DNA of 28,798 bases. Source: a virus. Every line of letters starts with the position of its first letter. Within the stretch, counting starts at the first letter, position 1. The translations under genes were made by a program, and so were the position numbers. Positions 12,359-26,389 of the stretch are shown piece by piece. Location of the stretch: positions 1-28,798 of the IMG/VR virus record IMGVR_UViG_3300005838_000049; one strand, written 5' to 3'. The notes beneath the pieces are model-generated. The model did not search any database. It was not told the origin of the DNA and worked only from the letters and a program-made list of their open reading frames with translations.

Positions 12359-12373
12359 AGAAAGGAGATCATA

Positions 12374-13126
12374 GTGGATAAGGAGAAGATAATAAGTAAG
12401 ATAAGAAAACTGCTGGCTATGGCAGGGTCTAAAAGTTACAATGAGCATGAGGCAACTAATGCCGCGTCACAGGCTCAGAAGCTTTTAACTAAACACAATT
12501 TATCTATATCAGAGGTAGAGGCAAAGGAAGTTGAAACATTAGATATGAAGTTTACTGATGATGGAGATCACGTCTACGATTGGAAAATATATTTATCTCA
12601 GGGAATAGAAACAGCCTTTGGGGTAAGGATATTCATTTTAGGAAATGTAGAATCAGGTAGACAGTTTGGAGTTAGGTTCATAGGTGGGGCGGTAGACATA
12701 TCAGTAGCTAAATACACATATGAATACCTAATAGAAACTGTAGATAGGTTGTATAAAGAAAAGCAAGAACAGGAACAAGAAGAACCTCTGGCAGAGTTTG
12801 GAGAGTGGAGTGCTGGACCAATGACAGCAGGGATATTTCAAGCAATAAGAACTTCTGCTAGAAAAAACACACATGAACATTCATTTAAAAAAGGAATAGT
12901 GGAAAGCCTTAATACAAAATTGAGAGCGATGGTTGCCAAAGCTCCTCAACAAGAAGAGACAGGAATCATTCATATCAAAGGACATGCGTTAAGACAATAT
13001 GTAGACAACCTGGATAATGTCAACGAAGAACCAATAAAGCAGAAACAACCTGATATAGATTTTGAATCATATTTATATGGTACACATGTAGGACATGGAG
13101 TAGAAATAAGAAAAGGAATACAATAA
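12374..13126 (+). CDS. DUF2786-domain protein, copy 2, GTG start
   Basis: Residues about 5-50 (KIISKIRKLLAMAGSKSYNEHEATNAASQAQKLLTKHNLS) closely match the first copy at 4198; beyond that the two proteins share only the general plan. GTG 12374 follows AAAGGAGATCATA. The middle is rich in E and Q. The C-terminus LYGTHVGHGVEIRKGI fits the family's G-rich ending. Function unknown; the position beside the initiator and helicase suggests a replication-associated job, which is inference. Confidence 0.8.
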   Translation: MDKEKIISKIRKLLAMAGSKSYNEHEATNAASQAQKLLTKHNLSISEVEAKEVETLDMKFTDDGDHVYDWKIYLSQGIETAFGVRIFILGNVESGRQFGVRFIGGAVDISVAKYTYEYLIETVDRLYKEKQEQEQEEPLAEFGEWSAGPMTAGIFQAIRTSARKNTHEHSFKKGIVESLNTKLRAMVAKAPQQEETGIIHIKGHALRQYVDNLDNVNEEPIKQKQPDIDFESYLYGTHVGHGVEIRKGIQ

Positions 13127-13153
13127 TTTTAATCTTAGAATAAGGAGAGAACT

Positions 13154-13432
13154 ATGGAAAATTTAACTAGTCAAGATATAAACATTATTTTAGAAGCTAT
13201 GGATTTATACGATAACTATGTGACTTTCAACAAACAGCAATCTGATAACCCTATAGTATCAATGCTTTCTAAAATGAATGTAGGTCAATTTCAATCAGAC
13301 GATAATAAGAAAGATGAGGAAGAGAAGCATAGGGCAGCTAAAGATCAAATTATTATGCTGAAAGCCAAACTACTGCAAATTAAAAACGCTAAGGCAGTTG
13401 AAACTTTTCTTGACGACAATAAGGATAATTAA
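13154..13432 (+). CDS. Hypothetical protein, 92 aa
   Basis: Not recognised. Charged and probably helical (INIILEAMDLYDNYVTF, later HRAAKDQIIMLKAKLLQIKNAKAVETF). ATG 13154 follows AAGGAGAGAACT. Stop overlaps the start of the helicase (TAATG), so it could be a helicase accessory factor; that is only a positional hint. Confidence 0.7.
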   Translation: MENLTSQDINIILEAMDLYDNYVTFNKQQSDNPIVSMLSKMNVGQFQSDDNKKDEEEKHRAAKDQIIMLKAKLLQIKNAKAVETFLDDNKDN

Positions 13433-14817
13433 TGAAAGACGCTAAAATAGAAAAGCAGATAGTGACAGGGATGATTGTTAGTACAGAGTTCTGCCAAGGA
13501 CTAGCCCCTATCTATAGGGAGCAGTTACAACTGCCCAGCACAAATAAAGTGGCTAGTTGGTGTATGGACTACTTCAGGGAGTACGGACAAGCCCCTAAGA
13601 AGCACATTAAGGACATATTCAAACATCATTCTAAAGCACTAAAAGAAGAGCACAGGTTTCTAATTGAAGAGTTCTTAGAGCGTCTCTCAAGCAAGTATAA
13701 ATCATCTAAGACGTTTAATGTGCAATATGTCTTAGACATTGCTGAGGAGTATTTGAGAACGATTGCTGTGGAAGAGGTACAACACAAACTATCTCAGGCT
13801 ATTGAGAAAGGTGCTGTTACTAGAGCAGAGAACATAATCAAAAAGTTTGAGAGAACTGCTAGACCAGAATCTAAGGGAGCTGATCCTTTTAGCAAAGATG
13901 CTGTTGTCAAAGCATTTACTAAAGACACAGGGAACATGATGTACTCTTATCCTGGAGAGCTAGGTAGAATCGTTGGGCCTTTTGAACGAGAATGTTTATC
14001 TGCATTTTTTGGCGTTAGGGGTACAGGGAAGACATGGTGGTTATTGTGGTCAGGGTTGCTTGGAGTATTTGCTGGATACAATGTTGTGTTCGTTAGTTTG
14101 GAAATGTCTGAGGAACAAATATTTAAACGAATACATCAGTACTTAAATGCTCGACCTACCAGGAGAGGAGCATTTAAACTCCCTGTGTTTAATGACAAAT
14201 CAGATGGTATAAAAACCAAACTATTAAAACGCAACAGAAAGCAACTCGACATAGGGTCTGCATTATCTAAACTCTCAGATATTGATGAAAGTAGTTTGGT
14301 GAAAGCCAACTTTAAACTACTAACCTATCCCTCAGGCACATTGACTATGGATGATCTTAGAGCACAACTACATAACATGGAATACTATGAAGACTTTATT
14401 CCTGATATGGTTATTACAGACATGGCTGATAAGTTCAAGTCAACAGAGAATGGGGACTATCGTCATAAGATAGGTAGCGTATGGAGGCAACACAAAGCAT
14501 TGGCACAGGAGAAGAAATGCCATGTACTTACTTGTAGTCACACAAATACTGCCCGCACAGGAAAGGATGCGGGAGTTGGTAGTGCGGCGGAAAGTATGGA
14601 GAAGGAAAACGAAAGCGATGTTATTTATGCACTTAATCAACATCCAGAACAGAAGCTAAGAGGGCTGATGAGAATATTACTTACTAAACACAGACACGAT
14701 GATTACGACTTACTAAGGGAAGTATATGTTACTCAATGCTTGTCGATAGGGCGACCGTACTTAGACAGTCGTCTTAAACCTAGAAAGAAGAAAGGAGCTA
14801 AAGTTGAACAAGATTAA
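13432..14817 (+). CDS. DnaB-like replicative helicase
   Basis: Ring helicase of 461 residues. The N-terminal helical domain spans about 1-150. The RecA-like core has Walker A GVRGTGKT at 194-201, the H1a-type VVFVSLEMSEEQ near 219-229, and Walker B MVITD at 326-330. A late motif CSHTN and a basic arginine region (LLTKHRHDDY) fit the family. It works with the separate primase at 9716. The start overlaps the preceding stop, and the ending carries the SD of the next gene (AAAGGAGCTAAAG). Confidence 0.9.
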   Translation: MKDAKIEKQIVTGMIVSTEFCQGLAPIYREQLQLPSTNKVASWCMDYFREYGQAPKKHIKDIFKHHSKALKEEHRFLIEEFLERLSSKYKSSKTFNVQYVLDIAEEYLRTIAVEEVQHKLSQAIEKGAVTRAENIIKKFERTARPESKGADPFSKDAVVKAFTKDTGNMMYSYPGELGRIVGPFERECLSAFFGVRGTGKTWWLLWSGLLGVFAGYNVVFVSLEMSEEQIFKRIHQYLNARPTRRGAFKLPVFNDKSDGIKTKLLKRNRKQLDIGSALSKLSDIDESSLVKANFKLLTYPSGTLTMDDLRAQLHNMEYYEDFIPDMVITDMADKFKSTENGDYRHKIGSVWRQHKALAQEKKCHVLTCSHTNTARTGKDAGVGSAAESMEKENESDVIYALNQHPEQKLRGLMRILLTKHRHDDYDLLREVYVTQCLSIGRPYLDSRLKPRKKKGAKVEQD

Positions 14818-15034
14818 AAAGTTTTTTAAAGGTACATGGGTGTGGGAAGTATTCTTTTCAACGGTAAGGTATTATCATTATGATAGGTTTTTAGATAGTA
14901 CTGATTATATTGAATTATCTCCAAGTGGAAAAATTACATTTGTTGATAGGGATGGGTATCGTGATCCTTCAATATATTGGACAAAAGAATTGCTAGATGA
15001 GATGGTTGAGAAAGGTACTTATGTTATAAAATAA
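14804..15034 (+). CDS. Hypothetical protein, 76 aa, TTG start
   Basis: Not recognised. TTG 14804 sits behind AAAGGAGCTAAAG in the helicase tail. Basic, aromatic N-terminus (NKIKKFFKGTWVWEVFFSTVRYYHYDRF) with no clear membrane helix. Last gene before the new promoter at 15040, so it probably closes the replication operon. Confidence 0.65.
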   Translation: MNKIKKFFKGTWVWEVFFSTVRYYHYDRFLDSTDYIELSPSGKITFVDRDGYRDPSIYWTKELLDEMVEKGTYVIK

Positions 15035-15039
15035 AGTAT

Positions 15040-15071
15040 TTGACTTTTTATATTTTGATAGTATAATCAAA
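15040..15071 (+). promoter_or_regulatory. Sigma70 promoter of the 7-deazaguanine cassette, with dyad at -10
   Basis: -35 TTGACT (15040-15045), 16-base spacer, -10 TATAAT (15062-15067). A dyad TTTGAT (15054-15059) / ATCAAA (15066-15071) brackets the -10. Start expected near 15074, 18 bases before queD. Confidence 0.8.
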
Positions 15072-15091
15072 CCAAAAAGATTGGAGATAAA

Positions 15092-15445
15092 ATGAAGATA
15101 AGTGTAACAAAATTATTTGAGTTCGAGGCAGCACATCATTTACCTAACTACGATGGAGCATGTGCTAACTTACATGGGCATACTTACAAGTTGGAGGTAG
15201 AAGTGATTGGGCATGTTGCTTTAGAGTCAGGGATGGTAGAAGATTTTAGTTTGTTGAAGAAAGCTGTTAAAGAGTTAGTGATAGATAAATATGATCACTG
15301 TAATCTTAATGATTGGTTTCATATGCCTACAGCAGAAAATATGGTTATAGAAATCTTTAACATACTGCGAAAAAGTTATAATGGTATGGTAACGAGGGTA
15401 AGGCTGTGGGAGACATCAACTTCATATGCAGAGGTAAAAGAATGA
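15092..15445 (+). CDS. queD: 6-carboxy-tetrahydropterin synthase QueD
   Basis: Second step of the preQ0 pathway: dihydroneopterin triphosphate to 6-carboxy-tetrahydropterin. Zinc ligands are H15 (AAHHL), H28 and H30 (NLHGH); the reactive cysteine is C24 (GACANLHGH). The catalytic DH...LND (residues 68-73), PTAENM (79-84) and WET (106-108) blocks are all present. Length 117 fits the family. ATG 15092 follows TTGGAGATAAA and a strong promoter. It overlaps queE by four bases. Confidence 0.95.
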   Translation: MKISVTKLFEFEAAHHLPNYDGACANLHGHTYKLEVEVIGHVALESGMVEDFSLLKKAVKELVIDKYDHCNLNDWFHMPTAENMVIEIFNILRKSYNGMVTRVRLWETSTSYAEVKE

Positions 15446-16110
15446 GAGTTCATGAGATATTTGCCAGCATAGATGGGGAGGTTAATAAATGGGGAGCGGG
15501 ACACCCCACTGTGTTCATACGATTTCAAGGTTGTAACCTCAGATGTACTTACTGCGATACCCCTAAATCATTAGATATCTTAGATGAAGATATAGCAGTT
15601 GATATGGAGATAGATGAAATTGTAGATAAGGTAATATCATTTGGTTTAAACAAAGTGACTATCACTGGTGGAGAGCCTCTGTATCAAAAGCCACCTGATG
15701 AACTTAAATCTATGTACCATGCCGCTGTACTTGAATTAGTTGATCGGCTATCTGACTTAGGGCAATTGATATCGGTTGAAACAAACGGTACACAACCCAT
15801 ACCGACCTATTATACATTACTTGATAATGTAGGTTGGGTAGTTGATTACAAGTGGGAGTACAATAGACAAATGATAGTGAACTATCAGGGACTAGGACCG
15901 CAAGACTGGATTAAATTTGTAGTATCTGCAGAACATGTCATAGAAACTTTTAATAAGATAAAAGAAATGAGGAAGGAGGGTGTATCAGCACAAATAGCTG
16001 TCAGTTCGACGACCAACAGCCACGCATGGCTGGCAGAGATGTTGATTAAAGAGAAGATGGCTGATGTTCATTTAAATGTGCAACTGCATAAACTAATTGG
16101 AGTAGCATAG
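15442..16110 (+). CDS. queE: 7-carboxy-7-deazaguanine synthase QueE
   Basis: Radical SAM enzyme that contracts the pterin ring to 7-carboxy-7-deazaguanine. The cluster motif is C31-x3-C35-x2-C38 (CNLRCTYCDT), with the following TITGGEPLYQ. The N-terminal HEIFASIDGEVNKWGAGHPTVFIRFQG is the family's usual start. 222 residues is normal. I start at ATG 15442 in the ATGA overlap with queD; an upstream in-frame ATG at 15406 lies inside queD and has no SD. Confidence 0.94.
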   Translation: MRVHEIFASIDGEVNKWGAGHPTVFIRFQGCNLRCTYCDTPKSLDILDEDIAVDMEIDEIVDKVISFGLNKVTITGGEPLYQKPPDELKSMYHAAVLELVDRLSDLGQLISVETNGTQPIPTYYTLLDNVGWVVDYKWEYNRQMIVNYQGLGPQDWIKFVVSAEHVIETFNKIKEMRKEGVSAQIAVSSTTNSHAWLAEMLIKEKMADVHLNVQLHKLIGVA

Positions 16111-16123
16111 GAAAGGAGAGTAT

Positions 16124-16372
16124 ATGAAAAAAGTATTTAAGTGTGAAGCAACTGGGGAAGAGATAGTTGTTCAGAAGACTAAGAACAGGGAGTATAATGA
16201 AACCCGCAATATGTCTATAGAAGAATTAACTAAAATTTTAGAGTGGGTTGATATACAAACTTTAAAGTCCGCCCTATCTAATGTACTCAATGGTAAAACT
16301 GATAGATTGATATACATTGCTCAGGCTCTCCATGGAAGAATCTACGACGTTTTAAGAAAAGCAGAATGGTGA
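16124..16372 (+). CDS. Hypothetical protein, 82 aa
   Basis: Not recognised. Starts MKKVFKCEATGEEIVVQK, then a mostly helical part (MSIEELTKILEWVDIQTLKSAL). SD AGGAAAGGAGAG is strong. It lies in the modification cassette after queE; no catalytic motif visible. Confidence 0.7.
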   Translation: MKKVFKCEATGEEIVVQKTKNREYNETRNMSIEELTKILEWVDIQTLKSALSNVLNGKTDRLIYIAQALHGRIYDVLRKAEW

Positions 16373-16406
16373 TAAAGGCATAGGGTCTTTATTATATTTT
16401 TTAATC

Positions 16407-16421
16407 CCTTAACCAAAAGGA
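16407..16421 (+). repeat. 15-base leader repeat, copy 1
   Basis: CCTTAACCAAAAGGA occurs here and again at 16781-16795, each time directly before an ATG. CCTT can pair with AAGG across the loop, which would cover the SD. Confidence 0.6.
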
Positions 16422-16429
16422 AATTTACA

Positions 16430-16756
16430 ATGTCAGTAAAAAAATACCATGAAGAAATTGAAGGTGAGTTAGATAAAGAAGATGTTAAAAAAGTGAAACA
16501 GATATTAAGAAATCATTTAATTAAGGTAAGATCAGCAGAAGCAGAAGTAAAAGCCATTACAAGAGCATTAACAAAGAAAATCAAACAGGCTGCTAAAGAG
16601 GCAGAGGGCTTAAGAAAAGAGTATACCTTGCTATTAACAAAAGAACAGGATGACATATTAAACAGTGTTGAAGACGAAGATGATAAGGAGATGATAATGA
16701 TTGATGGAGGAATGGAAAGAAGACAGAACAGTAGATTCGGTCGTTACGGAAGGTAA
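16430..16756 (+). CDS. Coiled-coil hypothetical protein, 108 aa
   Basis: Not recognised. Strongly charged and helical throughout (KYHEEIEGELDKEDVKKVKQILRNH, then EAEVKAITRALTKKIKQAAKEAEGLRKEY), with an acidic region and a basic tail ending RFGRYGR. Preceded by the 15-base block CCTTAACCAAAAGGA that also precedes the next gene. Confidence 0.7.
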   Translation: MSVKKYHEEIEGELDKEDVKKVKQILRNHLIKVRSAEAEVKAITRALTKKIKQAAKEAEGLRKEYTLLLTKEQDDILNSVEDEDDKEMIMIDGGMERRQNSRFGRYGR

Positions 16757-16780
16757 TTAATTTATTTTAGTAGTAAAAAA

Positions 16781-16795
16781 CCTTAACCAAAAGGA
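16781..16795 (+). repeat. 15-base leader repeat, copy 2
   Basis: Exact second copy of CCTTAACCAAAAGGA, 9 bases before ATG 16804 and containing its SD. Confidence 0.6.
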
Positions 16796-16803
16796 GTAGT
16801 AAA

Positions 16804-17316
16804 ATGAGTGTATCAAAGAAAGATTTAGAAAAAGCAATTGATGAGATTAATGAAAAGATCGTTGACACCCCTATCAAGAAGAAGGACGAGAAGAAGATGA
16901 CTCTTAAGATATTGAAAGCCGCAAAGCTGATAGAGCCAGATGATGATATCTCAAAGGAGACCCTGGCTACTATTAAGAAGTTGAAGAAGGCTAAGGGTGA
17001 TTCAACAGAAGAAGAGCCTAAGAAGAAAAAGAAAGGTAAGAAGAAAGAAGCAACTGAAGAAGAGCCTAAGAAAGGCAAAAAGAAAAAAACCGGAAAGAAG
17101 AAAGAGGGAGCAGGTACTTCTTGTTACGGTCATAAGCTAGGGTGTGCCTCTGGTTTAATTGACGAAGCAGTTAAAGACAAGAAAGGCCACAGCATAAAGA
17201 AAATTGCTGACAAGCTGGAGTTGAAAGTTGCCAGGGTACTTGGACATCTAAACCACTTGAAGAATGTTAAAGGTGTTAAGATGAAGATAGACGGCGACAA
17301 AGTTAAGGTTCTATAA
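16804..17316 (+). CDS. Histone H1-like lysine-rich protein with HTH-type end, 170 aa
   Basis: Residues about 55-100 are a low-complexity lysine block containing two TEEEPKK units separated by lysine-rich spacer (KKKKKGKKKEA). It recalls the tail of histone H1-like bacterial proteins. The last 60 residues (SGLIDEAVKDKKGHSIKKIADKLELKVARVLGHLNHLKN) look like a winged helix. The N-terminus (LEKAIDEINEKIVDTP) is helical. Condensing or DNA-binding function is plausible but not shown. It ends just before an intrinsic terminator. Confidence 0.75.
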   Translation: MSVSKKDLEKAIDEINEKIVDTPIKKKDEKKMTLKILKAAKLIEPDDDISKETLATIKKLKKAKGDSTEEEPKKKKKGKKKEATEEEPKKGKKKKTGKKKEGAGTSCYGHKLGCASGLIDEAVKDKKGHSIKKIADKLELKVARVLGHLNHLKNVKGVKMKIDGDKVKVL

Positions 17317-17330
17317 TTTTCCCACTGATG

Positions 17331-17368
17331 AGGGGCTCTGCATGTATTGGGAGCCCCTCTACTTTTTT
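17331..17368 (+). terminator. Rho-independent terminator
   Basis: AGGGGCTC (17331-17338) pairs perfectly with GAGCCCCT (17351-17358) and is followed by CTACTTTTTT. It sits between the lysine-rich gene and the folE fusion. Because the folE genes are still needed for the pathway, partial readthrough or an additional promoter must be assumed. Confidence 0.85.
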
Positions 17369-17381
17369 AATAAAGGAAACT

Positions 17382-18320
17382 ATGCACTACAAATTAGAAC
17401 AATTTCAAAAAGATGTTAAAAGGTTAGCACAATTAATTATCAATGAAACTGATGGGAAGTATGAATGTATATATGGAGTACCTCAGGGAGGGGTACCATT
17501 AGCAATGGCTTTGTCACACGAATTAGAAATACCGATAACAGAATTTTCCCCTCTTAATTTTTATGTTGGGGGATCAGTATTAATTGTAGATGATGTGATT
17601 GATTCAGGGGCTACTAGACAAAAATATAAAGGGTATGATTTTGCTTGTCTGCACATAAAGTCCCAGTCACCTAAGAAAATTATTGATGATTTAACTGCTG
17701 GTACTTTTGTAGTTAATAAAGACATAGATGGTTGGGTAGATTACTGGTGGGAAGGAGACGAAGCCCCTGCTGAAGACGGTGTGATTAGAATCATACAAGC
17801 TATAGGAGACGATCCAAATAGAGAAGGATTACTTGAGACCCCCAAACGTGTGGCAAAGAGCTGGGAACATTTGTTTAGTGGTTATAAGGTAGATGTAGAT
17901 AAAGAAGTTGAATCCCTCTTTAAGAAGTTTGGTGCTGACTCATATAATGAAATGGTTGTATTGAGGGATATTGAGTTTTATTCTATGTGTGAACATCACA
18001 TGTTACCCTTCTTTGGCAAAGCTCATATCGCTTATATACCTAATGGCAAAGTCGTCGGCATATCTAAACTAGCTAGACTACTAGAAGTACATTCTAGGCG
18101 ACTACAAATCCAAGAACGTATAGGGGAGAATGTAACTGCAGATATAATGAAGCATTTAAAGGCACAGGGTGCGGCTTGTATTATAGAGGCAGGTCATTTG
18201 TGTATGAAGATGAGAGGGGTTGAGAAACAGAATAGTGTGATGATTACTTCTTCCCTGAAAGGTACATTTTTAGAACAAGATAGAACTAGATCAGAATTAA
18301 TGTCTTTGATAAGGAGATAA
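17382..18320 (+). CDS. folE: Phosphoribosyltransferase-GTP cyclohydrolase I fusion (FolE)
   Basis: C-terminal half (about 130-312) is GTP cyclohydrolase I, first step from GTP to dihydroneopterin triphosphate. It shows DDPNREGLLETPKRV (143-157), zinc ligands C203 and H206 in SMCEHHMLPF and C274 in GHLCMKMRGV, plus GISKLARLLEVHSRRLQIQE. The N-terminal half is a type I phosphoribosyltransferase with the PRPP loop VLIVDDVIDSGAT (66-78) and a closing WVDYWWEGD like the WxVYPWE of xanthine-guanine enzymes. The PRTase could salvage guanine to feed FolE or be a regulator. ATG 17382 is chosen: it has AAAGGA before it, and the earlier in-frame ATG at 17328 would put the start inside the terminator. 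Confidence 0.9.
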   Translation: MHYKLEQFQKDVKRLAQLIINETDGKYECIYGVPQGGVPLAMALSHELEIPITEFSPLNFYVGGSVLIVDDVIDSGATRQKYKGYDFACLHIKSQSPKKIIDDLTAGTFVVNKDIDGWVDYWWEGDEAPAEDGVIRIIQAIGDDPNREGLLETPKRVAKSWEHLFSGYKVDVDKEVESLFKKFGADSYNEMVVLRDIEFYSMCEHHMLPFFGKAHIAYIPNGKVVGISKLARLLEVHSRRLQIQERIGENVTADIMKHLKAQGAACIIEAGHLCMKMRGVEKQNSVMITSSLKGTFLEQDRTRSELMSLIRR

Positions 18321-18323
18321 AAA

Positions 18324-18656
18324 ATGGCATTAAAAAGATGGGTAATCCCTACTGGATTAATAATTTTTATAATAGGAGTTATTTTATTTATTACTTCGAT
18401 AGTTTTTATTGTTAAAGCTGGCTATAGAAATGTAGACTATGTTAAATCTAAAGCTACTGAAACATCTACACAAAGTCACTTGTTAATAACAGGCTACGAG
18501 GGATATCAATGGTCTCCAATTTTTGGTGGATATGTATGGTATATCTTTAATAAAGTCCCAAACAATGGTATTTCTTATCATGGGGCATTTTTCAAAAGAT
18601 CTAATGGAGAGATTCATCTACAAGATCTTAGTGCTATAGATGCAATTAAACCTTAA
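18324..18656 (+). CDS. Membrane-anchored hypothetical protein, 110 aa
   Basis: Residues about 8-33 (IPTGLIIFIIGVILFITSIVFIV) form one membrane helix. The rest (YRNVDYVKSKATETS..., then a beta-rich part with GGYVWYIFNKVPNNGISYHG) would be on one side of the membrane. Not recognised. It lies within the modification cassette with only a 3-base gap to folE. Confidence 0.72.
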   Translation: MALKRWVIPTGLIIFIIGVILFITSIVFIVKAGYRNVDYVKSKATETSTQSHLLITGYEGYQWSPIFGGYVWYIFNKVPNNGISYHGAFFKRSNGEIHLQDLSAIDAIKP

Positions 18657-18665
18657 AGGAGAATA

Positions 18666-19682
18666 ATGCAAATAGTTAAAGCAGAAATTTTATGGACAAG
18701 AACATGTAATTTAAAATGCTCTTACTGTGGTATGGTCACAGGGGAATCTAATACCCCAACAGTAGAGCAATGGAAAAAAGGCATAGACAACATAAAGAAA
18801 TTAGGTGCTGACTTTATTGCTTTCTATGGGGCAGAGCCTTTAACTGATTTTGAAAAGTTACCTGAAGTGGTTGGGTATGCAGAGAAGAAAAAGATACACA
18901 CAACAGTTATTACCTCTGGAGTAGTTCCTGGATTGTATAAGAAGCTTCACCAGTTATATAAAGCAGGGGCAAAGTCATTAACGATGTCTTATGATATAGT
19001 CCCTCTTGACAAAAATAGTGAACGCAAATCAGAGAAAGCTCTCAAAGGGCTCAGGTATTTTAAATCTCTAGGTAAAAAAGTTCGCGATGTAGCCATAGTA
19101 ACAACTCTTACTAAACAGAACATACGTCAGCTCCCCCACACTATACGCTCTATGTCTGAAGAAGGTATTTGGACTTTGTTTGATCTGATTCACCCAAACA
19201 GAGGGCAAGAGGGAAGTAAATGTATTGGTAGTAGTAGAGACTTTATGTTTAAGACCGAAGAAGATCTTAAATTGTTTGATACTGTTATGCAGGAAGTTCT
19301 AGAATTAAAGAGATCAGGGCATTTAGTACATACAAGCGAACAATTTGTTGAGCTAGTCAAGAGGGACAATCATAAGATATTGCTTAACTACGATTGGAAC
19401 TGTGGGCAAGAAGATAACTTCCCTGCCTGGATAACAATTGATTGCAATGGTAGGGTATATTGTTGCGATGACTTTCAACCTCAATACTTAGAACTCCATA
19501 ACGAGAACAAGATTAAGATGAAGTTCTACATGTGTGGGATATACGACAACTGGAAAAACTTTACTATATACAACAAGAAACAAGTTCGTACTTGTCCAGG
19601 CTGTTGTTGGAATACACACATCGATGCTCATTATATCAAGAGGGGCGAAATACCAATGGGAGATTATACTCATACAAACTAG
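18666..19682 (+). CDS. Radical SAM protein with SPASM-like cysteine tail, 338 aa
   Basis: The cluster motif is C14-x3-C18-x2-C21 (CNLKCSYC). A GGEP-like GAEPL is at 55-59. A C-terminal cysteine-rich region (C246, C260, C266, C267, C290, C310, C313, C314) looks like a SPASM/twitch domain binding extra clusters. It is not QueE and not a known member of the preQ0 route. In this cassette it is a candidate for modifying the deazaguanine base or a tRNA/DNA partner. Reaction unknown. SD AAAGGAGAATA directly upstream. Confidence 0.82.
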   Translation: MQIVKAEILWTRTCNLKCSYCGMVTGESNTPTVEQWKKGIDNIKKLGADFIAFYGAEPLTDFEKLPEVVGYAEKKKIHTTVITSGVVPGLYKKLHQLYKAGAKSLTMSYDIVPLDKNSERKSEKALKGLRYFKSLGKKVRDVAIVTTLTKQNIRQLPHTIRSMSEEGIWTLFDLIHPNRGQEGSKCIGSSRDFMFKTEEDLKLFDTVMQEVLELKRSGHLVHTSEQFVELVKRDNHKILLNYDWNCGQEDNFPAWITIDCNGRVYCCDDFQPQYLELHNENKIKMKFYMCGIYDNWKNFTIYNKKQVRTCPGCCWNTHIDAHYIKRGEIPMGDYTHTN

Positions 19683-19684
19683 CT

Positions 19685-19774
19685 TGCAGGAGAGCCTGCA
19701 TATCATTCGAGGCATGTGCGTGTGAAAGCACTCCAGTCTGGAAAGGAACTGTGATGGGTGTATGTGCCTCGAAT
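19685..19774 (+). ncRNA. Structured intergenic RNA, multi-branch (candidate cis-element)
   Basis: A 6-bp hairpin TGCAGG/CCTGCA (19685-19700) is followed by a perfect 10-bp closing helix ATTCGAGGCA (19705-19714) / TGCCTCGAAT (19765-19774). Inside, GTGC/GCAC makes a small arm and CACTC-CAGT with ACTG-GGGTG (bulged) another, giving a three-way junction of about 70 nt. It precedes the small CxxC gene and queC, at the point where cassette expression could be tuned. No riboswitch family was recognised. Confidence 0.55.
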
Positions 19775-19796
19775 AATTTATTATAAAGGAGAAGTT

Positions 19797-19898
19797 ATGC
19801 TTAGAAAAATTAAATGCTTCTTTGGATTGCATCAGTGGTGGAGAGTAGTTTATTATGAAAGATACATTTGTAAATTTTGTGGAAAGGAGATGCGATGA
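19797..19898 (+). CDS. Small CxxC protein, 33 aa
   Basis: ATG 19797 follows AAAGGAGAAGTT. The peptide MLRKIKCFFGLHQWWRV...ends with ICKFCGKEMR. A CxxC pair like half a zinc finger is visible, and this C-terminal CKFCG pattern is common in tiny phage proteins. It overlaps queC (ATGA), so it may act as a coupling ORF. Confidence 0.65.
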   Translation: MLRKIKCFFGLHQWWRVVYYERYICKFCGKEMR

Positions 19899-20629
19899 TT
19901 TTACTATTTAGTGGTGGAGTAGATAGTTATGTAGCATGGTATTATTTAGGTAAACCAAAAACAGTTTACTTTAATGTTCAAAGTCGATACAGTAGAAGAG
20001 AACTTGGAGTAGTCAAGCGATTAATACCTGATACTATCATTGACAACAGTTTAAATTTCTCTGATAGGGAAGTGGGAGACAAAGCCTATATCCCTTTTAG
20101 GAATTTAATATTGGCTTGCCAAGCTGTTAAGTATAGTGACAAGGTTGTTATTGCTGGATTAAAAGATGACAATGTCTCAGATAAAAACCAGCAAGTGTTT
20201 TATAAATTTAGTGACATGCTCACTGAGATAGAGGGTAGAAGTATAATAGTGTCTTCCCCTTTCTGGGATAAAACAAAGGAAGAGGTTGTGCGTTGGTATT
20301 TGTCAGCAGTAGGGAACCAAGAAGAACTATTACAAACCTTTTCTTGTTATGCTCCAGATGAGAAACATTATTCAAACGTACAGACTCCCCCTCTTGGTTG
20401 TGGAAAATGTCCAGCATGTTTTCGCAAGTGGGTAGCCTTAATGAGAAATGGTATAGATGATATGGAATTCAATAACAAAGATCTTGCCTTAGAGTATTAT
20501 TCAGCGGCTAGGGAAGGGAAGTACGAGCCTTCTAGAAACGAGGCTATCATTAAAACAGTAGAGGAGAGTGGTTGGGTTAACGAAACTATTTTAAAATCAG
20601 TTCATGAGGGGGAAACAGTTGAAACTTAA
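19895..20629 (+). CDS. queC: 7-cyano-7-deazaguanine (preQ0) synthase QueC
   Basis: ATP-dependent conversion of 7-carboxy-7-deazaguanine to preQ0. The PP-loop is SGGVDS at residues 6-11. The zinc cysteines C151, C169, C172 and C175 appear in the order C...CGKCPAC. 244 residues is slightly above the usual length. I start at ATG 19895 in the ATGA overlap with the small CxxC gene; the frame opens earlier, at 19877, but without SD. No archaeosine-type amidotransferase (Gat-QueC) fusion is present. Confidence 0.92.
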   Translation: MILLFSGGVDSYVAWYYLGKPKTVYFNVQSRYSRRELGVVKRLIPDTIIDNSLNFSDREVGDKAYIPFRNLILACQAVKYSDKVVIAGLKDDNVSDKNQQVFYKFSDMLTEIEGRSIIVSSPFWDKTKEEVVRWYLSAVGNQEELLQTFSCYAPDEKHYSNVQTPPLGCGKCPACFRKWVALMRNGIDDMEFNNKDLALEYYSAAREGKYEPSRNEAIIKTVEESGWVNETILKSVHEGETVET

Positions 20630-21086
20630 CTTAGGATGCGGTAGAGATATTCAAGAAGGATTTATAAACTTAGACAAGCAAGAGTTAAAGGGAGTAGATG
20701 TTGTTCATGACGTGGAGCAGTTTCCATATCCTTTTGAGGATAATTCAATGGATCATATCAACGCTACCATGATTTTGGAACATATATGTCCAAAGAACTT
20801 CATACCGATTATGAACGAGTGCTGGAGGATATTACAAGCAGGAAAGACTATGTTTATAGGTGTACCGATAGCAGGTGCGTGGTTAGATTTCCAAGATCCG
20901 ACACATTGCAATCATATCGGTGAATGGACTATGCGTTATTTCGATCCTGCTTACCCTGAATATGCTTTTTATTCACCCAAGCCTTGGTGTATTCGTAAAC
21001 AAGCAAGGGAAGTATGTAAAAAGGGTGAGTGGATAAACATCCCTATTGATTGTTTAGAGATTACTTTAGAAAAGAGGCACGAATGA
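20619..21086 (+). CDS. Class I SAM-dependent methyltransferase, small
   Basis: The SAM-binding motif LNLGCG is at residues 3-8, followed by an acidic end of strand 2 (FINLDKQE) and HDVEQFPYPFEDNSMD (motif III-type). The rest fits a methyltransferase_11 core. I chose TTG 20619: GAGGGGG lies 6 bases before it, whereas the ATG at 20604 has no SD and lies in the queC end. 155 residues. Target not shown; the location suggests the modified base or sugar of the DNA, but a nucleotide pool or protein target is equally possible. Confidence 0.78.
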   Translation: MKLNLGCGRDIQEGFINLDKQELKGVDVVHDVEQFPYPFEDNSMDHINATMILEHICPKNFIPIMNECWRILQAGKTMFIGVPIAGAWLDFQDPTHCNHIGEWTMRYFDPAYPEYAFYSPKPWCIRKQAREVCKKGEWINIPIDCLEITLEKRHE

Positions 21087-21715
21087 AATATGTTGTGGAC
21101 ATAGATGGAGTGCTAACTAATGAAACTAAAGGTTGGCAATACCTTGACCGTACTCCAAACAAACGAAACATTGAATTAGTAAATGGGCTCCCTGATGTAA
21201 CATACTTTACTTCTAGATTTTTACAAGATGCTGAAGAGACGAGATATTGGATGCGTCAAAACAAAGTAAAGAATTGGTTACATTCTGCATTTGATAAACC
21301 ACAGTATGATGTTCTTATAGACGACAAGTCTATCCCTGCTCCAATGGAAAACTTAGACGAGTATATGAACTACGATTTGAAGGCAAGCTGTTGGAGGCTA
21401 AAGAAAGGCAGTAACCCTGAGGGAGAAGAACATGATTGTTTCTTTTGTGGACATGGTATAGCAATAGAAAAAGATTGGGAAAAAGATATGTGCCCTGACT
21501 GTGATTTAATCCCATGTACTTCATGTAAGAAATGTTTATGCAATGTCCCTGTCTTGTCTAGGATTACAGTAGCTCGTATTCATAAAAAATATTGCTGTAA
21601 TCTACCTGACTTCATAGGGAAGATTGAACTAGATGGATTTGTAGATATGAATGTAATTAGAAACGCTGAAAAAACTTTATCAAATTGTGCCTGCATTGAG
21701 GGGATACTAGAATGA
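21083..21715 (+). CDS. HAD-like phosphatase with zinc-rich C-terminal domain, 210 aa
   Basis: The HAD core shows DIDGVLTNE (D6, D8), TSRF (43-46) and VLIDDKSI (motif IV, D80/D81). The last 95 residues carry many cysteines: CFFCG (119-123), CPDCD (137-141), CTSCKKCLC (145-153) and CC (171-172), consistent with two zinc sites. That combination is unusual. HAD enzymes are phosphatases or nucleotidases, so it could act on a nucleotide intermediate. Start at ATG 21083 is in an ATGA overlap with the methyltransferase. Confidence 0.75.
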   Translation: MKYVVDIDGVLTNETKGWQYLDRTPNKRNIELVNGLPDVTYFTSRFLQDAEETRYWMRQNKVKNWLHSAFDKPQYDVLIDDKSIPAPMENLDEYMNYDLKASCWRLKKGSNPEGEEHDCFFCGHGIAIEKDWEKDMCPDCDLIPCTSCKKCLCNVPVLSRITVARIHKKYCCNLPDFIGKIELDGFVDMNVIRNAEKTLSNCACIEGILE

Positions 21716-22620
21716 TTATTTACTTAGGGGGAAACGATTATGAGTATCAAGCATCTGGATACAATAAAAAGAGTGAGCCCCCAGCTAGACTGTTCAGTTA
21801 CTTCTATCTTAAGGGGAGTGATAAGAAGCTTAAAGAGTTAAAGAATACTAAAGGTAAAATATTCTTAGACTCTGGAGCGTTCTCTGCCTGGAACTCTAAA
21901 AAAGAGATAGACCTAAAGGAGTATATCAAGTTTGTTAAGAAGCACAAAAATCATATGAACTCTTATGCTGGACTAGATGTAATAGGAGACCCTAAGGCTA
22001 CATTAGTAAACCAGAGGAAGATGGAAAAAGCAAAGTTAAAACCTCTACCATGTTTTCATTATAAGGAAGATGTTAATTATTTGAAAATGTACTTAAAGGA
22101 TCATGATCATATAGCTTTAGGGGGAATGGTTCATGCTAGTAAACGAAAAGGACAGTTATATGCTTGGTTAGATAAAATATTTAGCGAGTACCTTTGTGAT
22201 GATAAAGGGTATCCAAAGGTTAAAGTACATGGATTCGGTATTGCTTCTTTAGATGCTATGTTACGGTATCCTTGGCATAGCATAGACACTACCACATGGG
22301 GTTATGCTAGTAGAATGGGGGAGATAATGGTTCCTAAAATGAGAGAAGGTGATTGGGACTATACTGAGATACCCTCAAGAGTAGCAATGACTGAGACTAC
22401 TACTAAGAAGAAGAACAACTTTGCTAACCTTCCCCCATTGCGAAAGAAACAGGTGACTCAATATTGTATAGACAAAGGGTGGTCGGTTAAGAAGGTAGGC
22501 AAAGACATAGTAGCTAGGGGAGCCATCAACATACAATTTTTCCAAGACTTTGGTGCAAGTGTAGAGTACCCTAAACCAATGGTATTAGATACTGAGGAAA
22601 GGGGGTTTGGTTTAGAATGA
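21712..22620 (+). CDS. dpdA: DpdA-like 7-deazaguanine DNA transglycosylase, copy 1
   Basis: TGT-family enzyme that, in studied phages, swaps guanine in DNA for preQ0 or a related base. It shows the DpdA-type FLDSGAFSAW (D53), SYAGLDVIGDP (84-93), ALGGMVH (135-141), VHGFGIASLD (172-181) and HSIDTTTW with D192, the equivalent of the TGT catalytic aspartate. The zinc cysteines of bacterial TGT are absent, as in DpdA. 302 residues. ATGA overlap with the HAD gene and the second copy. The name reflects the family; substrate is not shown. Confidence 0.85.
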   Translation: MIIYLGGNDYEYQASGYNKKSEPPARLFSYFYLKGSDKKLKELKNTKGKIFLDSGAFSAWNSKKEIDLKEYIKFVKKHKNHMNSYAGLDVIGDPKATLVNQRKMEKAKLKPLPCFHYKEDVNYLKMYLKDHDHIALGGMVHASKRKGQLYAWLDKIFSEYLCDDKGYPKVKVHGFGIASLDAMLRYPWHSIDTTTWGYASRMGEIMVPKMREGDWDYTEIPSRVAMTETTTKKKNNFANLPPLRKKQVTQYCIDKGWSVKKVGKDIVARGAINIQFFQDFGASVEYPKPMVLDTEERGFGLE

Positions 22621-23642
22621 AAATATGGATGGCTGGAGTTACTTCTCTTGTAAGAGAAAAGATTGTGTCTGATATACTGCCTCAAAGGTTATTAAGTTAC
22701 TATTACCTAGGGGCGGTGGAGAATAGTTGTTTAAAGATTATGAAGTACGATGTTGAGAATGATGTTGATATATTTATAGACTCTGGTGCGTTCTCTGCTT
22801 TGGCACAGGGGAAGGAAATTAAACTTGATAATTATATTAAGTTTATAAAAGAGAACGAAGATGATATAGATGTGTATGCTAATCTAGATGTTATAGGGGA
22901 CGCCGAGGCTACATTAGAGAATCAAAAAGAAATGCAAAGAGCAGGACTAACTCCCTTGCCTTGCTTTCACTTTGGTGAGCCTATTAAATTTCTACATCAC
23001 TACCTTGATAACTATGATTATATAGCATTGGGTGGAGTAGCATCTGGAAGTAGAAAGCATACTATGTCTTGGTTGAACGATATGTTTGATAAACATATAT
23101 GTGATTCAGATGGAGAGCCTAAGGTTAAAGTACATGGCTTTGGTATAACAGCATTGGATTGGTTATTGAGATTCCCCTGGTACTCGGTAGATAGTTCGTC
23201 TTGGAATGTTACTGCCAGGGTAGGGAACATATATGTGCCTAAGGTTAAGAACTGTCATTGGGTATACAACCACATCCCTGATGTTATTCCTGTTAGTACA
23301 CAATCATCTAGCTTATCGACTAAGAAACATGCGACTACCTTATCACCTAATAGAAAGAAGCAGATGATGGAGTACTTAGCCCAGAAGGGATATATATTAG
23401 GACAGTCTAAATTTAGAACAGTCTCTGAGGGCTACAAGTTAAAAAAGAAAGAGGCTTGGGCTGATAAAAAGAAAGCTGGAAAGACATTAGTAGAGAAGAA
23501 GACTATTGTAGGGTTAGCAAATGATTACAAAATAAGAGATGGTATTAATGTAGAGTACTTTAAAGATGTGCAGACTTTTTTAAGTGATCACCCTAGAAGG
23601 TTTAAGGCTGAGCACAAAAGAGAAACTTTTAACTTAGAGTGA
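22617..23642 (+). CDS. DpdA-like 7-deazaguanine DNA transglycosylase, copy 2
   Basis: Paralogue of the neighbour, 341 residues. It retains the same key blocks: FIDSGAFSAL (D55), VYANLDVIGDAEATL, ALGGVASG (137-144), KVHGFGITALD and YSVDSSSW with D192. The C-terminus carries an extra basic stretch of about 40 residues (KKKEAWADKKKAGKT...) before the common ending. Both copies keep the catalytic aspartates, so neither looks dead. They may form a heterodimer, as queuine TGT does, or use different sequence contexts or bases. Confidence 0.82.
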   Translation: MKIWMAGVTSLVREKIVSDILPQRLLSYYYLGAVENSCLKIMKYDVENDVDIFIDSGAFSALAQGKEIKLDNYIKFIKENEDDIDVYANLDVIGDAEATLENQKEMQRAGLTPLPCFHFGEPIKFLHHYLDNYDYIALGGVASGSRKHTMSWLNDMFDKHICDSDGEPKVKVHGFGITALDWLLRFPWYSVDSSSWNVTARVGNIYVPKVKNCHWVYNHIPDVIPVSTQSSSLSTKKHATTLSPNRKKQMMEYLAQKGYILGQSKFRTVSEGYKLKKKEAWADKKKAGKTLVEKKTIVGLANDYKIRDGINVEYFKDVQTFLSDHPRRFKAEHKRETFNLE

Positions 23643-23654
23643 AAGGGGAAAGGG

Positions 23655-23837
23655 ATGAAGCAAGAAATACATAATTTGAGTTATATTTATTCAAATTTAG
23701 AAAATGCTATTTTAGAGTTAAGACGATTTGAAAAGCCATTAGAACCTTTACTTACTATCCCTATGAATCAATTAAGAGACGCAAGGAGAAGAGTAGATAA
23801 ATTATTAGATGAAGCTAAAATGAAAGGAGAGCAATGA
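23655..23837 (+). CDS. Small helical hypothetical protein, 60 aa
   Basis: Not recognised. Charged helix (LENAILELRRFEKPLEPLL...QLRDARRRVDKLLDEAKMKG). SD GAAAGGGGAAAGGG upstream; stop overlaps the clamp start (ATGA). Confidence 0.65.
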   Translation: MKQEIHNLSYIYSNLENAILELRRFEKPLEPLLTIPMNQLRDARRRVDKLLDEAKMKGEQ

Positions 23838-24835
23838 ATAAAAAAGAAGTGGTAGAAATACTGCAGGCAGTAAAGCCTGCTCTAGCAAACAAAGAGGTAG
23901 TGGAGCAAACTACAAGCTTCATATTTGCAAACAAAAGGGTATTCACCTTTAATGATGAGGTTATGATATCACACCCTATTGCTTTGAAGATTAAGGGAGC
24001 TGTTCCTGCTAAGGAATTGTTTGGTTTACTTAGTCAGGTAAAGACTGAGGAAGTAAGTATTAAACAAACTGAGAACGAGGTATCTATTGAGGGGGGTACG
24101 TTTAAGGCAGGAATTGCTTTAACAGAGAAAATAACCCTGCCTATAAAAGATATTAAGATATCTGATGGTTGGAAAAAGTTATCTAAGAAGTTCTGCGAGG
24201 CTGTGGAGTTCTGTTTGTTCTCTGCGAGTACTGACTATAGTAAGGTTGCCTTAACTCATATACATGTGAGCAAAGAGGGATTCGTAGAATCTGCAGACAA
24301 CTTCCGTGTAACTAGATACACAGATAAAAGTATTAAAGCCAGTATGCTAATCCCTGTGACTGCGGCTAAAGAATTAGTTAAGTACGAGCCAACTCATTAT
24401 CAGAGGGATAAAGGCTGGATTCATTGTAAGAATAAAGATGATGTTGTCTTTTCTTTTAGAACTCACATTAGTAAGTACCCTGACACGAGTAAAGTATTAA
24501 AGATGAAAGGGGAAGTTATTAAGTTTCCACCTGTGTTAGCTGACTCTTTGAGTAATGCTGAGACACTAAGTAAGGAAGAGATCAATGGGGATAGATTTGT
24601 AACTGTGTCTTTGAAAGGGAAAAAGATGTCAGTTAAGTCAGAGGGTGATGTAGGTTGGTATAAGGATACATTTAATTTGAGAAAGGCGTATGGAAAAGAT
24701 GAGATGTCTTTTGAAATCAACTCCAAGTCCTTTAGAGAAATACTAACACACTTAAAGAAAGGAACAGTGACTCAGAATAAATTGAAGTTTGAGGGTGATA
24801 ATTTTGTTCATGTTGTTATATTGAAAGGGGTATAG
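23834..24835 (+). CDS. dnaN: Sliding clamp (DnaN-like, phage type)
   Basis: Ring that tethers the polymerase to DNA. 333 residues with three repeats of the clamp fold typical in phage beta-clamps. I base this on SFIFANKRVFTFNDEVMISHP, VPAKELFGLLSQVKTEEVSI, FKAGIALTEKITLP and the late VRLKGKKMSVKSEGDVGW, plus the position among replisome genes. Divergent from E. coli DnaN, so a moderately strong call. ATGA overlap with the gene before. Confidence 0.82.
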   Translation: MNKKEVVEILQAVKPALANKEVVEQTTSFIFANKRVFTFNDEVMISHPIALKIKGAVPAKELFGLLSQVKTEEVSIKQTENEVSIEGGTFKAGIALTEKITLPIKDIKISDGWKKLSKKFCEAVEFCLFSASTDYSKVALTHIHVSKEGFVESADNFRVTRYTDKSIKASMLIPVTAAKELVKYEPTHYQRDKGWIHCKNKDDVVFSFRTHISKYPDTSKVLKMKGEVIKFPPVLADSLSNAETLSKEEINGDRFVTVSLKGKKMSVKSEGDVGWYKDTFNLRKAYGKDEMSFEINSKSFREILTHLKKGTVTQNKLKFEGDNFVHVVILKGV

Positions 24836-24837
24836 TT

Positions 24838-25056
24838 ATGTTTAGTATTCAACAAAAAAGAGAAATATCAGAAGCAGTTCAAAAAGCATTAAGGGATACA
24901 AACCACCCTGAGTTACCAGAAGAAGAAATCTGCTTCACTCTTCATGTAGAAGGCAGGGGAGATTTAGGGTATTCTTCTTATGCTGATATTAAAAATAATG
25001 GACAAGTAATGTTCCCAGTCGCTAATCCTCATAATGAAAGTCAGGATAAAAGATGA
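24838..25056 (+). CDS. Hypothetical protein, 72 aa
   Basis: Not recognised. Helical start (QQKREISEAVQKALRDTNHPELPEEE) then a beta-rich part. Two bases separate it from the clamp and four overlap the polymerase exonuclease gene, so it is co-translated with replisome genes. Confidence 0.7.
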   Translation: MFSIQQKREISEAVQKALRDTNHPELPEEEICFTLHVEGRGDLGYSSYADIKNNGQVMFPVANPHNESQDKR

Positions 25057-26234
25057 GAGAGGGATTCTTTGACAAAGAGTTGGAAGAGGCTAAGACATCT
25101 GATTGTACTAAATGCAAGCTCTATCAAAAGTGCAAGTCGCCTAGAATGAAACATAGTGGCAAAGGGGAGAAAGGCATTCTCATTATAGGCGAAGCACCAA
25201 GTTCAACAGAGGATAAGAAAGGGAAAGCTAATGTTGGGCAAGCAGGGAAGATACTGAAACTTGTATTACAAAAGCACGGTATTGATTTACATAAAGATTG
25301 TTGGAAGATCAATGCTGTGTCCTGTAGACCCCCTGAGGGGAAGGAGCCTTCTAAGAATCATATTAAGTGCTGCTTTCCTAGGGTAGAGAAACTAATTAAG
25401 AAAAAGAAACCTCATTTAACATTAGTCCTTGGGGGAGCGGCGCTGAATAGTTTCTTAGGGACTAGACTTAACGAAGCCCCTGGTGGGATAAACAAGTGGA
25501 GAGGTTTTATATGTCCTGATCAAAGATACAAGACATGGATGACTTCTACTTTCCATCCTAGTCACTTGTTATATAATCCTGATGATAAGATACTGCATAA
25601 TATGTTTCGTAGGGATATAGTAGCAGGGTTAAAGAGACTTAATAAAGATCTCCCTAGGTACGGAGATTATAAGATAAACATACATCGAGACGAGGACGAG
25701 CTCATTGCCCTGCTATGCCACATACAACAAAGTGATCCCCCAGAGCTGTTTAGCTTTGACTATGAGACTACGGGGCTAAAGCCGTACGTTAAGGGGCATG
25801 AAATTGTAACATGTGCGTTCCACATTGACAAAGAGACACATGCTTTTAGAATGACTAAGAAAGTCGCAAAGTATTGGAAGAAGATACTGAGGGACAAACA
25901 CATTCCAAAGACAGCACAGAATTTAAAGTTTGAACATCAATGGGGAAGAGTTGTCTTAGGGGTAGTGACTAGAGGTTGGGTGTGGGATACGATGCAAGCT
26001 TCACACATAATAGATAACCGTCAAGGAGTAACAGGATTAAAGTTTCAAGCCTATGCTAATTTTGGACAAGAGGATTACAGTTCGCATCTAGATAAGTTTA
26101 TTAAAACAAAGAAGGACGTGGAGTTTAATAAGATTCACAAAGCCCCTATCAAAGATGTATTACAATACAATGGTATGGACGCTGTGATAGAACATTATTT
26201 AGCTATTAAGCAGATGAAGGAGTTAATTAAATGA
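25053..26234 (+). CDS. UDG domain fused to 3'-5' exonuclease of DNA polymerase A
   Basis: Residues 15-200 form a family 4-like uracil-DNA glycosylase: iron-sulfur cysteines C18, C21, C91 and C106/C107, motif GEAPSSTED (46-54), and HPS (168-170). Residues 225-390 form the DEDDy proofreading exonuclease: D236-x-E238 (DYETTGL), N290-LKFE, and Y372-NGMD376. The polymerase domain is absent here and is encoded by the separate gene at 26386. The UDG domain could be catalytic or only a uracil sensor; the usual D/E water-activating position is GEAPSSTED. ATGA overlaps at both ends. Confidence 0.88.
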   Translation: MREGFFDKELEEAKTSDCTKCKLYQKCKSPRMKHSGKGEKGILIIGEAPSSTEDKKGKANVGQAGKILKLVLQKHGIDLHKDCWKINAVSCRPPEGKEPSKNHIKCCFPRVEKLIKKKKPHLTLVLGGAALNSFLGTRLNEAPGGINKWRGFICPDQRYKTWMTSTFHPSHLLYNPDDKILHNMFRRDIVAGLKRLNKDLPRYGDYKINIHRDEDELIALLCHIQQSDPPELFSFDYETTGLKPYVKGHEIVTCAFHIDKETHAFRMTKKVAKYWKKILRDKHIPKTAQNLKFEHQWGRVVLGVVTRGWVWDTMQASHIIDNRQGVTGLKFQAYANFGQEDYSSHLDKFIKTKKDVEFNKIHKAPIKDVLQYNGMDAVIEHYLAIKQMKELIK

Positions 26235-26389
26235 GTTTTAAACACGACGTAGTCTGTAAGGATTGTAATTGGGCAGGGGTTGTATTCGATCTTCAAAAAG
26301 ATGAAGACGGTAGTTCTTGTATCTGCCCAAAATGCCATAGCACAAATATAGAAGAGACTGTAAAGAACAAGGAGAAGTATTCTGAATGA
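26231..26389 (+). CDS. Zinc-ribbon protein, 52 aa
   Basis: Runs ATG 26231 to TGA 26387-26389. C9-x2-C12 (CKDC) and C32-x2-C35 (CPKC) make a rubredoxin/zinc-ribbon pattern. It overlaps both neighbours by four bases and is placed exactly between the exonuclease and polymerase genes. It may bridge the two subunits or be an accessory factor. Confidence 0.75.
   Translation: MSFKHDVVCKDCNWAGVVFDLQKDEDGSSCICPKCHSTNIEETVKNKEKYSE

Follow-up and report, generated by a model that had tools for sequence, protein, structure and literature searches.

The DNA analysed here (the window) is a 28,798-base IMG/VR virus record, a phage fragment on a metagenomic contig, and it carries a set of 7-deazaguanine genes that includes an unusual member of the QueC family, called QueC' below. 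On balance, we read this set as a post-replicative phage DNA-modification cassette in which QueC', a HAD phosphatase and a twitch-domain radical SAM enzyme would route 7-carboxy-7-deazaguanine (CDG) to a base other than preQ0, which DpdA would put into DNA. Modification of the phage DNA by a 7-deazaguanine through DpdA is well supported, because both DpdA copies in the window keep the signature of the 9g-type enzymes and the cassette lies in the replication module of tens of related phages. The finished base is probably not preQ0, and it may be one that has not been described. An earlier reading of the letters alone (the sequence-only reading) had named QueD, QueE, FolE, QueC, a radical SAM protein, a methyltransferase, a HAD protein and two DpdA-like enzymes, and had proposed that FolE, QueD, QueE and QueC make preQ0. 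Searches with hidden Markov models (HMMs) confirmed these genes, with QueC present as a QueC-family protein that is not a canonical QueC. The formation of preQ0 is doubtful, because the protein falls in a divergent clade that lacks the tyrosine tied to recognition of CDG.

QueC' (19895–20629, + strand) is a divergent QueC-family ATP-pyrophosphatase of 244 amino acids. It scores over the cut-off of PF06508, whereas it reaches 36 bits against the canonical model TIGR00364, for which the cut-off is 150. The motifs of QueC, known from mutagenesis, are SGGxDS, YxQxHxxE, VPxRN, YPDC and a zinc motif with a tyrosine, and in the Escherichia coli enzyme the mutations Y35A, R99A, Y131A and Y189A abolish activity (PMC13329287). 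QatC, in which those motifs are lost, fails to restore queuosine or to make preQ0 (PMC13329287). In an alignment with E. coli QueC (L174) as the reference, SGGxDS, xPxRN and the zinc cysteines are intact in the window protein. At the positions of YPDC and YxQxHxxE it has KDDNVSDKN and YFNVQSRYSRRE, and neither motif is present.

The window protein also differs from other known versions of the fold. It lacks the N-terminal glutamine amidotransferase (Gat) domain, and its match to phrog_1550 is confined to positions 149–373 of 418. It has no N- or C-terminal extensions, and it scores approximately 32–34 bits against the QatC model NF041925, with a cut-off of 280. With respect to Cap9, YxDC is absent from QueC', and no CD-NTase was recognised among the conserved neighbours. 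The AlphaFold model of QueC' (pLDDT 86) gives Z scores of 17.6 with Cap9, 16.7 with QatC and 16.3 with QueC. Because the model is about equally near to all three, the fold leaves the reaction of QueC' undecided.

The motif pattern extends to relatives of the window protein. SGGxDS and the cysteine zinc motif are present in the nine QueC' proteins of the module and in the wider set, and xPxRN in nearly all of them. YPDC, even when relaxed to YPD[CN], occurs in none of the QueC' proteins sampled, which have runs such as KDDxVSDKN or QKGEMxIPDRT at this position. Canonical QueC and Gat-QueC of sister phages keep YxD[CN], except in some divergent rows, L024 and L009 among them. PF06508 scores are approximately 42–69 bits for QueC' and mostly 83–245 bits for the other QueC-family proteins in these records, with 150–245 bits for the majority of QueC proteins from sister phages. 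In a quick tree of 150 rows, which has long branches elsewhere, QueC' forms a separate clade, with 71 rows on one side of a branch with an SH-aLRT value of 100. Isolates with measured DNA modification, or their close kin, served as calibration. YPDC is found in Seuratvirus (the genus of CAjan) and in a phage of the Rosebush species, YPDN in 9g and FPDC in CP220; the measured modifications are dPreQ0 for Seuratvirus and Rosebush, dG+ for 9g, and 100% replacement of dG by dADG for CP220 (PMC6884629, PMC8306585). The CP220 QueC (L258, 100978–101595) scores 156 bits and is otherwise canonical.

A comparison across phages ties QueC' to the radical SAM and HAD genes. With a DpdA alignment, 80 viral loci were collected, many of which share their surroundings, running from a helicase to a clamp, a UDG-exonuclease and a polymerase. 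The loci split by the type of QueC: a single canonical QueC is found in 24 and a Gat-QueC in 45, whereas a few are of the window type. These few are the window, the near-identical phages L003 and L004, and L054, and in them a radical SAM gene and a HAD gene lie immediately next to QueC'. Searching with the radical SAM family yielded further phages with the order FolE-radical SAM-QueC'-HAD-DpdA; the order in sister phages is QueC-FolE-DpdA. When QueC' itself was used for a scan, 234 relatives were recovered, of which 80 were kept, and deduplication left 67 QueC' loci. A HAD gene is present in 48 of the 67 and in none of 69 deazaguanine loci without QueC' (Fisher p = 1.5e-21), and the radical SAM family (>200 bits) in 27 of the 67 against none of the 69 (Fisher p = 1.8e-10); both p-values ignore relatedness, and the independent events are fewer. 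QueC' and HAD are fused into a single reading frame in about ten loci, which is a direct sign of joint function. The sequence-only reading had allowed for a derivative made by the radical SAM protein, the methyltransferase or the HAD protein. This suggestion gains strength for the radical SAM and HAD proteins, which are linked to QueC' both statistically and physically, and is weaker for the methyltransferase, which varies among relatives.

In six contigs (65, 89, 91, 92, 93 and 96 kb) QueC' is the sole PF06508 protein, which speaks for a base other than preQ0. In 13 deduplicated loci a Gat-QueC-like protein is found beside QueC', so that in these loci QueC' does more than stand in for another QueC. 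These partners are unusual, often with CD for CY at the zinc site. In L201, L205, L210, L212, L214, L215 and L216 the Gat-QueC-like proteins, most with YPDN, have CD for the essential CY and an altered zinc motif, and they always stand beside QueC'. It is possible that the half-reactions of QueC are split between the two enzymes in such pairs. In one phage (L092:7992–11282), a single cassette holds QueC' and a Gat-QueC-like protein together with a pair of neighbouring radical SAM genes.

The radical SAM enzyme of the module (18666–19682, +; PF04055, 5e-16) has the core motif CX3CX2C in all nine members. A twitch auxiliary motif, CX13-15GX4C...CX2C, is likewise found in the nine members, reading CX15GX4C...CX2C in the window and with CX3C for CX2C in L086; the motif for this auxiliary cluster has been described as CX9-15GX4C...CX2C (PMC6231123). 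The best Protein Data Bank (PDB) match of the AF2 model (pLDDT 88.7) is BlsE, with a Z score of 25.2 over 305 residues and 16% identity, and SuiB and viperin lie below it at approximately 20–22. BlsE uses radical SAM chemistry to decarboxylate the sugar of a cytosine nucleoside (PMC3715490), and the likeness of the model suggests at most that the substrate may be a small molecule or of the nucleoside type. A search of bacterial and archaeal genomes yielded distant relatives only, the best with 24–27% identity over most of the length, so there is no cellular context to borrow. Among annotated phages there are two weak, partial matches, both from Acinetobacter, and a literature search on radical SAM enzymes in phage deazaguanine cassettes found nothing relevant.

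The HAD phosphatase (21083–21715, +; confirmed by HMM at 21050–21715) has all of the HAD motifs (DxD, T/S, K and DD) and a Cys-rich C-terminal extension; its PDB relatives are 9iqw, a capsule-biosynthesis protein (9e-14), and 1xpj (9e-13). The gene between QueC' and HAD encodes a SAM-dependent methyltransferase of the Methyltransf_11 type (20604–21086, +; PF08241, 1.8e-7). QueC' loci repeatedly contain methyltransferases, which belong to several families and vary among relatives, and some loci add a glycosyltransferase-like or a short-chain-dehydrogenase-like gene, named by eye from the sequence. Judged by their apparent families, these additional genes would resemble those used in side-chain tailoring.

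Two DpdA1-type DNA-guanine transglycosylases close the cassette: copy a (21712–22620, +; phrog_887, 7e-55) and copy b (22617–23642, +; phrog_887, 5e-59). The copies are 45% identical to each other, and both keep the invariant DSGA, LD, KVHGFG (containing His196 of 9g) and the D of [IVC]D[ST][ST]xW. His196 is the histidine characteristic of the 9g-type DpdA family (PMC6884629), and copy b is 38–40% identical to DpdA of the 9g group over approximately 72% of its length. The intact catalytic signatures of both copies and the setting in a replication module lend good support to the earlier claim that DpdA places a 7-deazaguanine in DNA. Tandem DpdA genes are rare, occurring in 3 of 91 DpdA loci, and one copy is degenerate in L008. 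A single origin of the tandem copies was considered and dropped, given a tree with long branches and little resolution. Placed on the DpdA tree, the presence of the radical SAM gene requires up to seven changes, two of which are forced by well-supported branches.

In the pathway that we favour, FolE, QueD and QueE, by virtue of their family membership, would convert GTP to CDG. QueC' would activate a carboxylate with ATP, acting either on free CDG or on CDG already in DNA. An amide or a side-chain conjugate would be expected rather than the nitrile preQ0, because the site for ATP activation is retained in QueC' whereas a residue linked to the formation of preQ0 is gone. The attached group would be made or tailored by the HAD phosphatase and the twitch radical SAM enzyme, with the HAD protein releasing phosphate from a precursor or intermediate, and one or both DpdA copies would exchange guanine in DNA for the modified base. 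A side chain is favoured because the radical SAM enzyme requires a suitable C–H bond, which the bare CDG ring would offer less well. We infer the substrate, the product and the order of the steps, as well as protection from restriction, which the modification may confer by likeness to other phages of such a kind. Tentatively, the cassette could represent a third line of deazaguanine chemistry in phages. The radical SAM and HAD enzymes would supply an amine or a side chain, QueC' would use its QueC scaffold to couple this group to CDG, either free or within DNA, and the outcome would be an undescribed hypermodified guanine.

Several observations weigh against a base other than preQ0. HAD and radical SAM are both missing under these HMMs in 17 of the 67 QueC' loci. 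Many of the 17 belong to a distant branch with FolE, QueD, QueE and QueC' and no detectable DpdA1, and therefore QueC' can work without the partners. The isolated Bacteroides phage BS162P1 has a distant QueC', QueE and a DpdA-like gene, and neither HAD nor radical SAM was detected in their vicinity. All contigs are fragments or of uncertain completeness. In the DpdA tree, sequences from QueC' phages and from phages with canonical QueC are intermingled, as would be expected if an identical or similar base were inserted or if the additional steps followed insertion. This intermixing would fit a DpdA that tolerates other bases, or tailoring once the base is in place, but it would equally suit the insertion of unchanged preQ0, and it is the best argument for an ordinary cassette. 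A diverged QueC' could still make preQ0, and the host could supply it as well. An ordinary cassette would have QueC' as a fast-evolving but working preQ0 synthase and dPreQ0 in the DNA, with the radical SAM and HAD enzymes as decorators or bystanders. QueC' does keep the SGGxDS, xPxRN and zinc motifs, it occupies the place expected of QueC next to QueD, QueE and FolE, and its DpdA neighbours are similar to the DpdA proteins of phages with canonical QueC. However, none of the QueC' proteins sampled has retained the essential tyrosine of YPDC, Gat-QueC-like proteins are present alongside QueC' in the 13 loci described above, and HAD and radical SAM genes are separated near-perfectly by the type of QueC. 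We regard an ordinary preQ0 cassette as unlikely.

The simplest form of the reading that we favour is that the reaction of QueC' goes no further than the amide, 7-amido-7-deazaguanine (ADG); the base would then be dADG or a tailored dADG and the loss of the tyrosine would remove the second, nitrile-forming step. ADG is an intermediate of QueC, and Y131F of the E. coli enzyme is only partly active (PMC13329287). CP220, the sole phage with 100% dADG that was checked, has FPDC in place of YPDC, but a Tyr-to-Phe rule drawn from this correlation rests on a single phage, whose QueC keeps the D and C and is canonical in other respects. A stop at ADG also leaves the linked radical SAM and HAD genes unexplained, and as a full account we find it somewhat doubtful. 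Another explanation is that the radical SAM enzyme decarboxylates CDG, so that the base would be 7-deazaguanine (dDG). This is the reaction that Cui et al. 2023 reportedly predicted for DpdL. The structural match of the model to BlsE, a nucleoside-sugar decarboxylase, would fit such an activity. Fold similarity is not equal to function, however; BlsE acts at an sp3 sugar carbon whereas the CDG carboxylate is on an aromatic ring, and QueC' would be superfluous, all of which makes a decarboxylase improbable. We give equally little credence to a role of QueC' in protein modification, where the module would serve counter-defence or regulation instead of the synthesis of a DNA base. Cap9 carries out N-terminal deazaguanylation and a similar activity has been proposed for QatC (PMC13279940, PMC13329287), and the modelled QueC' is about as close to these proteins as to QueC. 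Nevertheless, no Cap9- or QatB-like partner gene was found, the module lies within a DpdA cassette in most loci, Cap9 keeps the YxDC that QueC' has lost, and the score of QueC' with the QatC model is low.

The cassette is situated between the helicase and the clamp, within a replication region where HMM searches identified an initiator, a DnaB-like helicase, a processivity clamp and a polymerase over two reading frames. It starts with QueD, a 6-carboxytetrahydropterin synthase (15092–15445, +; TIGR03367, 2.6e-29, 101 bits, over the cut-off), followed by a QueE-like radical SAM protein, the presumed CDG synthase (15406–16110, +; phrog_2076, 9e-31), which also matches TIGR03963 (4e-34) and TIGR04349 (8e-32), both under the model cut-offs. 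A small, basic, Lys-rich protein with a conserved C-terminal domain (16804–17316, +) has no family match. Similar Lys-rich proteins lie between QueE and FolE in L003, L054, L085, L088 and L183, and a DNA-binding helper of QueC' phages is a possible role. FolE, GTP cyclohydrolase I, is fused to a phosphoribosyltransferase (PRT) (17328–18320, +; PF01227, 2e-71; PF00156, 6e-10; TIGR00063, 225 bits, over the cut-off). The PRT domain, which was absent from the description in the sequence-only reading, is N-terminal of FolE at 17328–17750 (+) and has an intact PRPP loop. The fusion occurs in 28 of 85 FolE open reading frames of related cassettes (including L003, L006, L009, L013, L015 and L086), with the loop degraded in some, and the domain gave no match among annotated phages. 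As a speculation, it may recycle the guanine released by DpdA to GMP or GTP. In agreement with the earlier reading, no QueF scores over the Pfam cut-off in the window, itself a fragment, the weak match being FolE itself, and none of 16 records searched has a QueF-like protein over the cut-off.

Some features lie outside the cassette. The DNA polymerase, with UDG-like and exonuclease parts preceding the polymerase part, is split between 25053–26234 and 26386–27705 (+) with a 150-bp gap; the split is shared by L003, and L054 has a single frame. A protein of phrog_421, a family with no assigned function, is present in two copies (4198–4926 and 12374–13126, +) that flank the early replication genes. 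By eye, the DnaB-like helicase (L054:3–2492) and the clamp loader (L054:16328–18406) of L054 contain apparent intein insertions.

The sequence-only reading had placed a promoter and an operator-like dyad at 15040–15071. The sequences are there: a putative sigma-70-like promoter, TTGACT-16-TATAAT (15040–15067, +), matches the consensus at 11 of 12 positions in the gap upstream of queD, and the dyad TTTGAT-N6-ATCAAA is exact at 15054–15071. Their frequency is not above chance. Promoter-like sites over 12000–27000 number 50 versus 49.1 in shuffled sequence, and the window has 59 comparable 6-bp dyads, approximately 0.12 per 57 bp, so that an operator reading of the dyad is within chance. In the relative L003, queD directly follows the helicase with no gap. 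The dyad as the mark of a regulon was dropped, with 7 imperfect copies versus 4.3 expected and 1 exact copy.

Between the radical SAM and QueC' genes there is a predicted, strongly folding RNA element of 70 nt (19705–19774, +). An 81-nt fold has an energy of −29.3 kcal/mol (z −4.0, reached by 0 of 200 shuffles) and a shape like a three-way junction with a GAAA loop. An Rfam search of the window that included the element gave no match, even at permissive thresholds, nor did its 22-mer core match among other viral contigs. The element is possibly a regulatory RNA. It is followed by a 33-codon open reading frame with a CxxC motif (19797–19898, +), whose stop overlaps the QueC' ATG at 19895, suggesting translational coupling to QueC'. 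Because of this overlap, ATG 19895 is a more likely start of QueC' than TTG 19877.

In the literature searched, with Cui et al. 2023 (DpdL/M/N) outside that coverage, no description of the radical SAM-QueC'-HAD module seems to exist. If our reading is true, the automatic annotation "QueC, preQ0 synthase" is misleading for a widespread phage gene, a large group of phages has a guanine modification absent from the current list, and the recent evidence that other ligation reactions have been built on the QueC fold gains an example from phages. Dozens of uncultured phages carry the gene set, and its three linked genes are candidates for an anti-restriction chemistry with a product readable by liquid chromatography-mass spectrometry.

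The nearest known cassettes are the dPreQ0 and dG+ cassettes of Seuratvirus/Nonagvirus (CAjan, 9g) and Rosebush (Hutinet et al. 2019, PMC6884629), with which the window shares FolE, QueD, QueE, a DpdA1-type enzyme with His196 and an adjoining replication clamp. In contrast to these, the window has neither a canonical QueC nor a Gat domain, and it has QueC', the twitch radical SAM enzyme, the HAD phosphatase, two DpdA copies and the PRT-FolE fusion. QueC' shares the fold, SGGxDS, [IV]PxRN and the Cys/Tyr zinc region with canonical QueC (PF06508 cluster 1, PMC13329287), but its YxQxHxxE is altered, YPDC is absent and it forms a clade of its own. The radical SAM enzyme has its core and the CX13-15GX4C...CX2C auxiliary motif in common with the twitch/SPASM enzymes BlsE, BtrN and MoaA, although the identity is approximately 16% at best and the family was seen here only in viruses. 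CP220, with dADG for dG, has lost the YPDC tyrosine as QueC' has, yet its FPDC stands in an otherwise canonical QueC. QatC (qatABCD) and Cap9 (type IV CBASS) also keep the QueC core, altered in QatC and minimal in Cap9, and ATP-dependent activation of CDG is shown for Cap9 and proposed for QatC. QueC' has neither the extensions of QatC nor the YxDC of Cap9, and unlike both it sits in phage DpdA cassettes.

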